Shown here in pieces: positions 37,370 through 44,185 of a stretch of 64,000 nucleotides of DNA. This stretch comes from Nannochloropsis salina CCMP1776. Lineage: Eukaryota; Sar; Eustigmatophyceae; Eustigmatales; Monodopsidaceae. The notes below the pieces were generated by a model. It had not been told where the DNA came from, ran no database searches, and saw only the letters and a program-made list of their open reading frames with translations. The translations under genes were made by a program, and so were the position numbers. Within the stretch, counting starts at the first letter, position 1. Every line of letters starts with the position of its first letter. The stretch covers positions 628,884-692,883 of the forward strand of contig SDOX01000002.1 in NCBI GenBank assembly GCA_004565275.1, written 5' to 3'.

Positions 37370-38352
37370 CTGAGCAGATACCCTGGTTGGAATGATGAAC
37401 TAAAAGCAGCTCCATCAGGAAACTTTCAGTCACGATTCAGCCGAGACAAGACTCGGCCACTGTTGCCTAAAAGGACGGCGCCCACGTTTTTCGCTTTCGA
37501 AATGAGCGCACCTGAGCACTCCCGTATCATGGTAGTTACGCAGTCGGAAATGGAGAAGAAAGAAAGACTCCGTGCTTTGCGCTTGACGAGGAGTTGGAGG
37601 TGAATTTCTCTCCATCAGATTTGGTAGGGCGTCAGGCATAGGGCCGCGGAAACGCTTTGGATGATATATAGGATATTTCATGAGATAGCATGGCCTGAGG
37701 TGTGCTCTACGACTCGAAAAAATATTGAAGGACCTAGGACTTGTGTTTATTACGTTCGGATCTACTTTATAACGTCAGGCTTTAGTGCACCTCATATTCG
37801 TTCTGGTCGGGCATCCATGAACCCCCAACAACCGTCCCCGCCCTTTGGCCGATTGTTTCCTACCCGGAAGTGGAAGTCGCTTTGAGCTTCAGTCCGCGCT
37901 ATCTACAAGTGAACACCGGACAAAATCCGATCAGGGCCTGCTAAGGCAAGCTTGTCATCACACACCCATACTACGTTGCCGCTGATTATGTTGACCATCG
38001 CATATGATGTACTTTAAACCTGGCAATGAAGGATTTTGTTCAGAGGTGTCAGAAGAGCACTAAAGGGAGCCAACAAACAGGAACAGAAACCACCGAAGAC
38101 ACAGGTCGTGAACAAGTGCTCGAGAGCAGGTATTGCCTAGTCTGGCGGGACCTAGTACAAGACGACCATGGAGGTATGATTATTTGAGGGCAGTACGTGG
38201 CATCCTTAGCAAGGTTTTGCCCTACTTTGACTGCGAGAGCGAAGGTCTTCTCCAGCCAAATGTCTTCCCTATCCTTTTTCTGCTTCGTGCTATCGTCTAA
38301 TGGTGCCCTCTCATGTTACGCCTTTTACCATGTGGTCTGACAGGACACGAGT
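37370..38352. other. Upstream region of the Zn2Cys6 gene
   Basis: About 1 kb between two genes on the same strand. No coding signal. It likely holds the ARS2 3' UTR and the promoter and 5' UTR of the zinc-cluster gene. An in-frame stop lies 15 bp before the chosen start (38338), so coding cannot extend upstream without another exon. Confidence 0.5.
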
Positions 38353-41300
38353 ATGACTGATACAACCTGTTTAAGCTGCTTCCGTTCGCACGTGAAGTGT
38401 GAGGTACGTCCACTTCTGAGACACGAACATCTGTTTCTTGCGAAAGGCGCGCATGTCCCTGCAATTCTTACTTCTCACATCTTCCATCGACGCATTTTCT
38501 ACCCTTTTTGATGATTCTACCGATACCAGAAATCAATCCCCTGCCGTCGGTGCCAAAGACTGAACCTTCGGTGCGTGCCGAACCCAAGACCTCGCGGGAG
38601 ACCCAGGAAGCCGACCTTCGCGCTCAATCACCCGGCGCGCGCTAAGAGTGATGCCAACAGCGCTGCGAGGAGTGGAAGAGACGAGAGGGGCAGAGCTAGC
38701 GATCGCGGCGTGGAGGGACGGGGCCCCTCAGACGACGGCGGAGGGCGCCAGGCGGGGCGAGGGGTCGGGGTGGGTCTGGCCTTCCCTCCCCCCCTGCAAC
38801 ACCAACATCCGGTTTTGCCTCACGTCGGTATCGGTGGGCCACCGCACCCGCCACGCATGCCATTAGATTTAGGCGCTGGCCCTTACTATGACGCGGGAGT
38901 GGCCACGAGCGCAGCAAGCGTGAGACAAGGCGTTACCATGCCCCTTGGGGCCGCCCTGGCTCGCTCCCATGCCGCTCTGCACGGGGGGATGGGGCCTCAG
39001 GGTGATGGCGCTGTCGGTGTCATGAGTGGGATTGGTGAGGGAATGGGCCAAGGAATCTCGCCAGCTTATTCGGCCCCCACTCTAGGAGATAGGCTACAGC
39101 TCCCGGGCATGCCATCTCGCTCTCCCTTCTACGACCAGCCGTCTCGATCGGCTGCCGGGGGGGCGCCCCGACAGCAAGTGCCACAACACTTTCAGTTTCA
39201 ACATTTCTTCCAAGAACAGGAGCAGCAGCAGCGGCGACAGTATAAAGGGCTCCACGCACCCCACGGGTCACAACATCACCAAGACCAAAACCAGCAGCAG
39301 CAGAACCAGCTCCTCCAACAGCAGCGATACCAACAGCCACCACAGCAACATCAACAACAGCTACAACTACAGTCACAGAAGCAGCAGGCACAGCATCATC
39401 ATTATCATCAAGAGCAGCTTCAGCAACCAGGAGAGGGAGGAGAGCAAGAGAAAGAAGAGAGAGACGAAGGGGGAGAACCAGAAGAAGAGGAGAAAGATAG
39501 ACATCGACACCGCTACCGACAGCAGCACCAGCATCAGCGAGTAGAAGAACTATTGCGCGAGGAGCAGGAACAACGAGAGCAAGGGCGGATGGAGGAAGGG
39601 CAACACCAGCGAGAGCCCCGACACGGCCACGGTCAACAACAGCATGAACAGCTGCCGCAGCCGCATCGACAGGCTCAGCCAAACTATCAACACCACCATC
39701 AACAACAAGATCGTCAACGAGAAGGAGGTGAAGGGGAAGAGGGTAAAGATCGACAGCATGAGAGGCCAACACCCTCAGAGTCGTCTTCAACACCACTGCC
39801 CGATCGACCCATCTTTAAAGTTGCACACCCGCCCCATTTCCAGAGGTGTGACAGTCAAAGGCGTCAAAAGCGAGATGAGGGTACCTATCTTAATGCACAG
39901 CTGCAACCTCAAGGTCAACAGCAGGGCGGCGAATTGTCAGGTCAAAAGCAAGAGACAAATCAGCAAGCAATTGTGGAACATCACGGGCATGGCTTGATTC
40001 AAGAGCAGGATCAGCCGCCGCCAGCGCGACAAGAAACATCGCAGCAGCTTGCTAACCGCCACCAGGAGAAACAGGGACAGCAGGCATTACAAGGTCTGGA
40101 GCAAGTCAAACACGGACAAATGCATCAGAAACCGCAGTCATATCAATTATATCGAGAACAGGAACCGCATCAGCAGCAGCAACAGCAACAGCACCATCGA
40201 GATGGAGAGGGTGGAGAGGACGATAATGTGAAAGAGGATGAGGAGGCAGAAGAAGGCACTGAAATGTCAGCTGCATCCCTGTCGTCCCCAGCACTTCCGA
40301 AAGGACATCAGGCTCCGGCCTCCCCGTCTTCGTTCCGGTCAACAAGTCTTGATGCACCCCAATCGCACGCGCAGGCAGGGCGAGCTTGGGATCTGCACGC
40401 GAGTCAGCGCTCAGCGCCTCAAGAAGCACCGAAGCCCTCTGAGCCCCGCAAAAAGGAGCGGTCGGCCCTCACAGATCCATTCCAGTGCTTGCCCTCGGGC
40501 GAGGGGCCCCAAGACAGCCGTGCCTCAGGAATCGCCGGAGGTGTGGGCTCTGCAACGAACGGGAAGGAGAGTCAGAGGAGCGACAGCGCCTGTATCAACA
40601 ACAGTGTAAGCGAGAGCAGCAGCGAGAGAGGCAGTGCCATGGTCACTTATAACAACTTCCAAGGTCCACCAGCAGATGCATGTGAAGTTTTTCATTCGGA
40701 TACCGAGAGAGTAGGGTTCTTGGGTGGGGGGTCCAGCACCCTCGCCGGCAGCGATCACGAGACTGCTCGGAGCGCATGTACAAAGAAGCATAATTCTTCA
40801 GCAAGAAGCTTTGCGAGCGCTGGCGGGGAAAATACAACTCTGGAGATGACGGGACCCTTCTTGAATTTGCTATCCAGCGGCGGGGTGGCTGTAGAGCGCA
40901 CGCGTCATTTGCTGACGTCCTGGCACCTGTGGAGCGTGGAAACACGGAACGCGAATGCGAAGGCTCACGTGGACCAGGAAGCAAAGGAGGATCTAAAGGA
41001 GGTCGCAAAACTGGTTCGGCTTTCTCTTCCCTCGTCGGTGGCGGAATGGATGGAGAGCCGCGGCCCTCAGGTCACGTCTGGCGCGTCGATGGCTTTGCTC
41101 GAGGAAGAAGAGCAAGTACAGAGCTTTCTGGACATGTGTGCCGACGACGATGGCTCGGCTATCTGTAGCGCGGTTTATTGTGGTGGTCGGCTGCAACTGA
41201 CATTGAATTCTCGCTTTGCAGCAATGTTTATGACATTGGAAGAGCTGGAAATGACAATCTCTCAAGAGATAGTTAGACCTGAGCTCGTGTGGCGAAGATT

Positions 41301-41532
41301 GCTGAGTCCAGAATGCTTTGTGGCTTATAATGAAGCGCTTTGCCAAGCATACTTTAGAGGACAAAATCTTGGTGGGGAAGTTTGCGAGATCATCAAATGT
41401 GTGGATCGCTTTGGGCTGGAGTTGCCCTGCTTTATGCGCGTCCGCATTTTCGCCTCCTCTCATGGTTCAATAACGGCCTCAGTCATTTTACTTCTTCCGC
41501 TTCAGCTATCGCGATTGCTAGAAAACATGTAA
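38353..41532 (+). CDS. Fungal-type Zn2Cys6 transcription factor with AT-hook and PAS-like domain
   Basis: Predicted DNA-binding regulator of 1017 residues from two exons, 38353-38403 (17 codons) and 38530-41532, intron 126 bp, phase 0. Splicing completes a binuclear zinc cluster at residues 6-32 with the exact spacing C-x2-C-x6-C-x5-C-x2-C-x6-C; three Cys come from each exon. An AT-hook follows directly (RPRGRPRKP, 37-45). About residues 215-560 are rich in Gln, His and Glu with CAG/CAA repeats. The last 140 residues are ordered again (GRLQLTLNSRFAAMFMTLEEL to RIFASSHGSI) and look like a PAS domain; that is a judgement by eye. Zinc cluster plus PAS is the layout of fungal ERT1/AcuK-type regulators of carbon metabolism. 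A Zn2Cys6 protein (ZnCys) controls lipid accumulation in Nannochloropsis gaditana; whether this is that gene or a paralogue cannot be decided here. Confidence 0.85.
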
Positions 41533-41924: not shown

Positions 41925-44185
41925 ATGCGCCCATTCTCGCAAAAACCTAGCATGGCAGGTGTGCTGCGATGCATTTTTCTGGCTTTGGCGCTGCTGTTGG
42001 TAATTTTCATCAATGAAGCCAAGAAAGTGGGGACCTCGCGCAGCAGCGGCGGCATGCCCGGTCGTGCCAAGCCTGCCACAAAAGCTGCAAGGTAAGCATG
42101 TACAACACTGCGTCGCACTTGGGCACATTTTTTCTCCATATAAGGATAAGGCATCTTTTCAGGAGAAAGTGGCTGTAAGACGTCCATGAAGACGAGTGTG
42201 GAGTGATCGCCCTCATCTTGCGGGAATCGGGATCCTTCCGCTTTGATTGACGTTGATGTGACACTTATGGAGCTCTTACAACATGATGAAATTGCTTGAC
42301 AAATGTCTGTCTTGGCTCTCCATCTTTTTATATCGATGCAAAGCCGCGATCTAACCCGAAATTATGCTTTATCAGCGCCAGGAGATCGAGCAAATCTACT
42401 CTCTCCACCCCAGGGGCACGGAGACGGCAGCCTTCAGTCGAGATCTACAGGGAAGAGGAGGCAGAGGATGAAGAAGACTTTGAAGACGACTACTTGTCTC
42501 CACCTAAGCGACGAAGTACTGGCACGCGAGGGAAGAAAAGGCCCGACTTCGGGAAACGAGCCATGGGAGCGAGCCATAAGTCGCGTCGTGTCTATATGGA
42601 CGAGGAGGAAGACGGGTTCGACGGCATGGCGGAAGAGGATGATTACGAGGAGGATATATACGAGGACGATGAGGGTGGCGACGAATACGGTGGGGAGCTA
42701 GATGGGCGCGAATACATGAAGGCGAGAGGCGCCAGAGGGCGGAAGGCGGCCCGCTCCGGGCGCTCGAGGTCGCGAGGGAGAGAGGTGCGTGGCCCCGCCC
42801 CGAGGGCGAGGTATGCCAGAGGCAAGAAGGGTAAGGCGCTGGCGTACAAGCCTTCCGGCTACGGGGTGGCGCGGGAGCCGCTGCAGGCGCGGATGATGCG
42901 GAACGTGTTCTTCTTGACGGAGAAGGTGCAGGGCATGGCGAGCAAGGGGAAGAAGATGACCAGAGAGCTGAAAGAGTACTTTAGCGGGGACTTTGAAAGC
43001 ATGCTCCTTAAGGCAACACGGCCAGACGACGCCCGCCCGCCTCCCGAGTTCATCGGCGCCATCCTGGACGCGACCGCCACCTTCCATCGGGACGAGGACC
43101 TGACTGCGGGCAGCAACCCCTACCGAGTCACGCTGCGAAAGCTGTGGGCGAAGATGGCGGAGAGGGATTGGCGCACCGTGGCCAAGGCCCTGTACCTCTT
43201 CCACGTCCTCCTCCGCGAATGCGAGCCCGACGATGTGCGCATTTACAAGAAGGTGTGCGCCAAGATGAGCCGGGAGGGGTGCAAGAAGACCCGGTCTCGG
43301 TATTTCGACGCGGGGGCGATCAGCGCTGTGGACGTGATGGACGGGGCGGGGGTGGGGGGGGCGGGGGCCTGTTTGGACCGACGCGACTTCATCGCCCGCT
43401 ACAGCAAGTACGTGCTCCAGCGGGCGAAGACCTTCACCTCCAAATTCGAGGAGATGAAGGTGATAGGGCAGCGGGAGATCGAGGCCAAGGACCTTGTGGG
43501 GCAGCTTGGCAAGGCCGAGAAGGTGCTGAGCTCGGGGCTGGAGTGCGCGCTGGGCGAGGCAGAGGAGGACGCGGACAGCGAGGTCACGCTCATGTGCGCG
43601 GAGCTGGTGGCCCGCGACGTGTACGACCTCTCCCGGCTCTTCCACGAGAAGCTCCGGTGGGCGATCGACAACCAGGCGGCGGCCTTCGAGGGCGCGGACA
43701 GGGCGGAGGTGGCGAAGATCCTGGAGCGCTTTCAGGCGTCCTACGCTCGCCTGTACCCGCAGGTGCAGCAGTTCCTGACACAGACGGCGCAGCTGCTGGG
43801 CGTCTACGGGATCAAGCTCCGCACAAAGCTTGAGCCGGCCCACCGCTTTGAGGAGGAGGCAGTGGCCGTGGGCGAGATGGTGGAGGGAGGAGAAGACATC
43901 GTGGAAGGAGAGGTGGTGGGAACAGCCACGGGTGACACGGCAACGGAGGCGGCCGAGGGAGCGGGGGAGGAGGGAGGCGGGGCAGCTTCAGCAGTAGAGG
44001 CGAGTGCGGATGCCAGGGGACCGGCGAGTGGGCGCGTCCGAAGGAGAGAGGAGGAGGAGGAGGAGGAGGAGGAGGAGGAGGAGGAGGAGGAGGAGGAGGA
44101 GGAGGAGGAGGAGGAGGAGGAGAATGATGATGATGATGACGACGATGATGAGGATGAAGAAGAGGAAGACGAGGAGGAGGAATAA
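41925..44185 (+). CDS. ANTH/ENTH-domain protein with N-terminal hydrophobic segment and acidic tail
   Basis: Two exons join in phase 2: 41925-42091 and 42382-44185, giving 656 residues. Exon 1 is a signal-peptide or signal-anchor sequence (Met at 41925 or 41952, then VLRCIFLALALLLVIFIN). Next come an acidic stretch, an Arg/Lys-rich stretch (about residues 95-210), and a helical domain with ANTH features: LLKATRPDDARPPPEF (compare the phosphoinositide-binding KAT...PP signature), LRKLWAKMAERDWRTVAKAL and YLFHVLLREC, and FIARYSKYVLQ. The last 100 residues are Ala/Gly/Glu-rich and end in an unbroken Glu/Asp run of about 50 residues. ANTH proteins normally sit in the cytosol and load clathrin adaptors, so the hydrophobic leader is unexpected. 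Fold assignment is by eye. Function is inferred only. Confidence 0.68.
44049..44122 (+). repeat. (GAG)n microsatellite encoding poly-Glu
   Basis: About 24 uninterrupted GAG/GGA triplets in the 3' coding end of the ANTH gene, followed by mixed GAT/GAC and GAG codons to the stop. All frames stay open, so length change by whole triplets would be tolerated. Confidence 0.93.

Follow-up and report, generated by a model that had tools for sequence, protein, structure and literature searches.

An intron-split Zn2Cys6 zinc cluster and a predicted PAS fold in a regulator gene family of Nannochloropsis salina

How a DNA-binding zinc cluster comes to be encoded across an intron in an alga, and what kind of regulator would carry it, is the question raised by one forward-strand gene in a 64,000-nucleotide stretch of the Nannochloropsis salina CCMP1776 genome (contig SDOX01000002.1, C55:628884-692883; hereafter the window). 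Species of Nannochloropsis are under study as oil producers, and the fungal TRF class is known in N. gaditana and other algae (PMC4827209). A first-pass annotation had described this gene as a Zn2Cys6 regulator with an intron-split zinc cluster, an AT-hook, a Gln-rich body and a PAS-like end. Based on searches of the window and of the whole genome (26.5 Mb, 103 contigs), this is a real regulator gene and was read correctly. It probably encodes a nuclear transcription regulator built on a family plan of Zn2Cys6 cluster, GRP hook, variable linker, helix and PAS domain; the sequence itself shows the spliced cluster, the hook and the family, and the PAS fold comes from the predicted structure. The splice inside the cluster is already public in part, because the record of an N. 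gaditana protein (P0001) has the exact joint. What is new is that the gene belongs to a family, that the PAS module of this family is unmodelled, and that its zinc cluster is split recurrently. A Zn2Cys6-PAS family in Nannochloropsis is undescribed in the literature searched, as far as the available excerpts go and with the original ZnCys paper outside their reach.

A zinc cluster completed by splicing

The first exon is translated as MTDTTCLSCFRSHVKCE. Removal of a GT-AG intron of 126 nt in phase 0 (GTACGT...TACCAG), situated inside the zinc cluster, brings the long exon into frame (KSIPCRRCQRLNLRCVPNPRPRGRPRKP...) as far as the stop codon at 41530-41532, and the product of 38353-38403 joined to 38530-41532 has 1017 residues. 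The exon and intron boundaries and the frame had been given correctly to the base. When the intron at 38404-38529 is read through, two TGA stops are encountered and the product ends after 52 residues. The cysteines of the spliced protein are spaced C6-x2-C9-x6-C16-x5-C22-x2-C25-x6-C32, which fits the Zn2Cys6 pattern C-x2-C-x6-C-x5-16-C-x2-C-x6-8-C (PMC4827209).

The claim of a perfect cluster split by an intron was borne out by the profile searches. With a Pfam cut-off of 21 bits for Zn_clus (PF00172), the first 84 spliced residues scored 31.6 bits and a shorter piece 33.2 bits, whereas the unspliced long frame remained below the cut-off at 13.1 bits. When both strands of the window were scanned strictly for Zn2Cys6 motifs across one GT-AG intron of 40-500 nt, the 38403/38530 cluster was the sole spliced motif returned, and the same scan of first-order Markov null sequences returned none in 30. 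Zn_clus was the only Pfam family found on the long exon, and no fungal_trans middle domain was listed anywhere; an NCBIfam search gave no match. The solved structures related to the cluster by sequence include PUT3, Pho7, PPR1 and LAC9, GAL4-type proteins whose six-cysteine cluster aligns with that of the window gene; unlike them, the window gene has no Pfam fungal_trans domain in its long exon, and its host is an alga and not a fungus.

A protein search with the last 238 residues gave three of 2035 candidates at E <= 0.01. P0001, an N. gaditana orthologue of 884 residues, is 98% identical over these residues; its record names it a protein with a Zn(2)-C6 fungal-type DNA-binding domain, and its cluster is joined at the very point where that of the spliced window gene is joined. 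It has no precomputed Pfam domain, and the visible part of its name does not mention PAS. It differs from the window gene in a start further upstream, a Zn_clus score of 21.9 bits and the loss of the hook: its sequence skips from the last cysteine to GDGAVGV, a gap corresponding to window positions 38575-39000, which are bounded by GT and AG. This hook-free model is made doubtful by the second and more distant match, P0002, which has the same hook. P0002 reads MMEATCLSCFKSHVKCE, then 30 additional residues, then RSIPCKRCQRLSLRCVPNPRPRGRPKK; from the sequence, we read the insert as a retained intron at the intron point of the window gene. With the insert removed, P0002 and the window protein are identical at 27 of 34 positions in the cluster and 108 of 130 in the PAS part, and at 48 of 167 aligned positions (out of 440) in the Gln-rich part. 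The third match, P0003, lacks its N-terminus. An additional search with the zinc region of a paralogue on contig C72 yielded two candidates only, with one close relative of that paralogue, and was uninformative on other algal groups.

The N-terminus of P0001 is MEDTSVTDTTC, in which a Val corresponds to the Met encoded at 38353. If ATGGAG at 38168-38173 were joined to GACACGAGT ahead of the ATG at 38353, the product would begin MEDTSMTDTTC and contain 1022 residues, and the true start may thus lie upstream of 38353 (Table 1).

Table 1. Coordinates, within the window, of the parts of the Zn2Cys6-PAS gene
Feature	Position	Strand	Remark
Possible first coding mini-exon, ATGGAG	38168..38173	+	Start implied by N. 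gaditana MEDTSV...
Possible upstream intron, 170 nt, GTATGA...TGACAG	38174..38343	+	Alternative start model
17-codon exon with Cys6, Cys9, Cys16	38353..38403	+	5' edge 38344 in alternative start model
Intron within zinc cluster	38404..38529	+	Same joint in P0001; 30-residue insert at that point in P0002
Long exon to stop	38530..41532	+	1000 codons and stop
Second cluster half, Cys22, Cys25, Cys32	38542..38574	+	Sequence, Pfam
AT-hook-like motif, VPNPRPRGRPRK	38575..38610	+	Sequence; VPNPRPRGRPKK in P0002
Gln/Glu/His-rich body	39079..40398	+	Poorly conserved in P0002 and P0003
Predicted helix ahead of PAS (in VERTRHLLTSWHLW...)	40882..40953	+	Within stretch common to paralogues
PAS-fold domain	41158..41499	+	Predicted structure, element order EEHHHHEEE

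Hook-like motif, variable body and C-terminal fold

Directly behind the cluster stands PRPRGRPRKP, with the core PRGRP, in which GRP is flanked by basic residues as in the AT-hook (PF02178). The AT-hook proposed at this place was upheld by sequence but not by profile: no PF02178 match was listed in the window protein, and the hook of P0002, which by eye shares 11 of 12 residues with that of the window, scored 13.6 bits where the cut-off is 17.4. The motif is termed hook-like because of this shortfall in the Pfam score. The Gln-rich body is likewise present, with 15.5% Gln in the middle 747 residues, but is not a property of the orthologues in general; the middle region contains 17.6% Gln in P0001 and only 3.7 and 4.2% in P0002 and P0003, and the Gln-rich body is therefore placed outside the conserved plan.

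The PAS-like end found support in the predicted structure, not in sequence profiles. Five helices are predicted ahead of the PAS part, which itself shows the two strands, four helices and three strands of a PAS fold, and the assignment of this fold to the C-terminus is supported by the structural model. Three C-terminal pieces matched no Pfam family at E <= 10, and a profile of the family module run against PDB sequences retrieved calmodulin and other noise, with no sequence-based route to PAS.

A family with recurrently split clusters

The C-terminal module of the window gene recurs at about ten other loci of the genome. As a query it matched 10 places at E <= 1, one being the window itself; two of the places belong to a single C6 gene, and two form a near-identical pair on C57. 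With the C15 and C72 modules as queries, 26 and 13 rows respectively reached E <= 1; 13 of the former and one of the latter had E > 1e-3 and were excluded, ten of those from C15 matching the low-complexity tail of the query only and one being the C6 module. At E < 1e-3 these two queries added C1, C37 and another C57 gene, together with weak matches at C70 (two places) and C2, and the C40 module moved from E 0.5 to 6.7e-15. A profile of eleven modules scored frames on C15, C86, C70, C72, C57, C6, C1 and C40 at 78-279 bits; all of these except C40 were contained in the profile, so that only C40 (78 bits) gives an independent score. In the stretch that they share ahead of PAS, R-x-W is present in five of eight aligned genome modules, and the window gene has TSW instead. 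The two near-identical PAS-module genes at C57:1264k and 1269k lie 5.4 kb apart, as a recent duplication or an effect of assembly.

A zinc cluster and the PAS module share one frame in the window gene, at C86:752k (last cluster exon), C1 and C72:551k. On C15, C70 and C6, a cluster is encoded upstream of the PAS frame and on its strand, and a splice would have to connect the two. No zinc cluster was found by half-motif and split scans at the near-identical C57 pair (1264k) or at C40, where the scan was extended further upstream; the scans covered the loci other than C37 and the second C57 locus. The scan for split motifs, which took in 15 loci (some overlapping) and the window, 198 kb in all, produced 724 candidates, of which six rows, belonging to five genes, had scores of 34-46 bits, with 0.3 as the best of the remainder; the reversed-sequence control gave four candidates, the best at -75.

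Altogether 16 complete zinc clusters were found, nine of them split by introns (the window, C15, C86:752k, C70:1440k, C6 and four neighbouring C86 genes) and seven unsplit (C1, two on C33, C99, C72:551k, C29 and C30). Pfam was run on eight of the nine joined split clusters, the window's included, and all passed the cut-off with 32-42 bits. The introns occupy three positions: before the third cysteine (SK|VKC), after it (CE|K), and between the fourth and fifth (R|C, phase 2). The window gene alone among the nine has the CE|K position, and the C6 intron (SK|KRC) lies four codons earlier; C86:752k and C70:1440k have introns at both the SK|VKC-type and the R|C positions, which leaves a 35-nt exon between them.

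The GRP hook follows the last cysteine within 14 residues in 9/9 split clusters versus 0/7 unsplit ones, a count partly biased by the search, as C15, C86:752k and C70 were picked up by a pattern requiring GRP, and C86:31.6k by a query containing it. Among the split clusters found without such aid the figures are 5/5 versus 0/7, the C86 genes not being independent of each other. Three half clusters whose missing pieces are unplaced (C72:1281k, C80 and C2) were excluded from the 16; the first two have GRP.

Several observations were made around these clusters. C72:1281k contains a near relative of the half cluster and hook of the window gene (RCVRLNLSCVPNPRPPGRP), in which the fourth cysteine would need a very small exon, and C80:6700-7300 has a half cluster with the full hook core (RCQRMNLVCVPQERGRGRPRGS), its first half not being located. 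The four adjacent genes at C86:12.9k-31.6k all have intron-split clusters and a GRP hook, and a weak PAS-module match of 21.8 bits (L034:6180-6380) separates the first gene from the second. The adjacent zinc-cluster genes at C33:41k and 45k have a long repeated stretch in common (TEASLPLRDGTSMPRSDVIRTW...). On C29 and C30, similar clusters of the YCHxKKxSC type without a GRP hook follow a region that by eye resembles a degenerate response regulator.

Alternative readings, proposed function and annotation

If the joined cluster were the chance product of two unrelated frames, the protein would start in the long exon and would not bind DNA. The first exon is short, but the Markov nulls, the identical joint in the N. 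gaditana protein, the two halves with an insert between them in P0002, and eight other complete split clusters in the genome, seven of which passed Pfam when joined, leave this explanation with hardly any probability. A light sensor of the LOV type, which would make the protein light-driven like aureochrome, is suggested by aureochrome LOV domains among the top structural matches and by frames elsewhere in the genome that have NCRFLQ LOV motifs together with bZIP-like regions. The photoactive cysteine motif of LOV domains is of the NCRFLQ type; it occurs in the LOV frames of the genome but not in the 1017-residue window protein, and PAS structures are rich in LOV domains, so that a LOV identity is very improbable. 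Stramenopile bHLH-PAS and bZIP-LOV proteins likewise combine DNA binding with one PAS-type domain (PMC4827209), but their DNA-binding domain is another one, and the window gene lacks the LOV cysteine motif. A genome search with PAS_3 (PF08447) returned four hits, by eye three LOV-motif frames and one bHLH-PAS-like frame, none of them in the family of the window gene.

The first-pass annotation had also likened the gene to the ERT1/AcuK layout of fungal carbon-source regulators. Proteins of the ERT1/AcuK kind control gluconeogenesis and act as heterodimers. ERT1 and AcuK have the order Zn2Cys6, then PAS, and in this the likeness holds; AcuK and AcuM each contain both domains, and the PAS core NPEF... 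of Cryptococcus Pas2 may be compared with NSRF in the window protein (PMC12719309). Membership of the ERT1/AcuK/AcuM regulators, whether gained from or shared with fungi, is nevertheless improbable. PAS_13 (PF24990), which we take to be the PAS model of ERT1/acuK, matched nothing in the genome at E <= 10 (the first pass gave no candidate) and nothing in the window protein; no match of the protein searches was named as fungal, several being unnamed and the reach of the search limited; and the relatives that turned up in the genome are paralogues from this alga itself. AcuK/AcuM and ERT1/RDS2 thus share with the window gene two domains in one protein and their order, but the window gene lacks a PAS_13 match and has a hook beside its cluster. 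The algal family also offers a comparison case for the AcuK/AcuM pair. A further reading would make the gene the orthologue or a direct partner of ZnCys (Naga_100104g18), the N. gaditana lipid regulator. A Zn2Cys6 protein is a reported brake on lipid storage in Nannochloropsis; ZnCys has been described as homologous to a Zn(II)2Cys6 gene of fungi, and its deletion is reported to raise the share of carbon allocated to lipid from 20% to 40-55% (PMC11122798). The organism group and the DNA-binding class are the same, but with at least 16 complete zinc clusters in the genome the prior for any one is low; we consider an orthologue or partner of ZnCys a poor bet, and nothing in the analysis connects the window gene to lipids.

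As a nuclear regulator of the family plan, the protein would work as follows. The zinc cluster would bind two zinc ions and read a CGG-type half-site in the major groove, the hook would occupy the adjoining minor groove, and the linker would recruit the transcription machinery. By analogy with AcuK-AcuM, whose function is impaired by mutations in PAS and which are believed to pair through this domain (PMC12719309), the PAS domain may pair family members, or it may bind a small ligand. The intron in the cluster would have to be removed for a DNA-binding protein to be made, since read-through would end after the 52 residues given above. A more extended proposal, which we put forward tentatively and regard as rather unlikely, is that a eustigmatophyte Zn2Cys6-hook-PAS family, unmodelled in Pfam, arose apart from fungi and expanded to at least 12 genes, that introns entered its cluster of about 30 codons at at least three positions, and that splicing of the cluster chooses between a DNA-binding regulator and a PAS-only partner, possibly a dominant inhibitor.

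The first-pass annotation had warned that the DNA-binding domain would escape a gene caller, and this happened in a relative. NSK_001268 (P0005), whose sequence is read in the C70 frame, has its annotated start (MSGTHRQDSS) downstream of the three-exon cluster, all three exons of which are unannotated; two relatives of the C15 gene, P0006 and P0008, start with MLFS and have no cluster. A comparable loss was reported with CeGAL, where more than 90% of about 17,000 fungal MHD-only sequences were ascribed to annotation errors (PMC10141177); there, too, the DNA-binding domain is lost from the predicted protein, but those proteins are fungal and have the MHD, whereas the window family keeps a PAS module instead. 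If many members have a DNA-binding domain broken by introns, published counts, such as the nine Zn-clus genes in a table row that we take as the N. oceanica column (PMC3499364), may be too low, and regulators may go unrecognised among the 'hypothetical proteins', NSK_001268 for one. Downstream of the gene, the window contains a further frame (42290-44182) with an ANTH-like region of 19 bits (cut-off 21.5) and a terminal Glu/Asp run.
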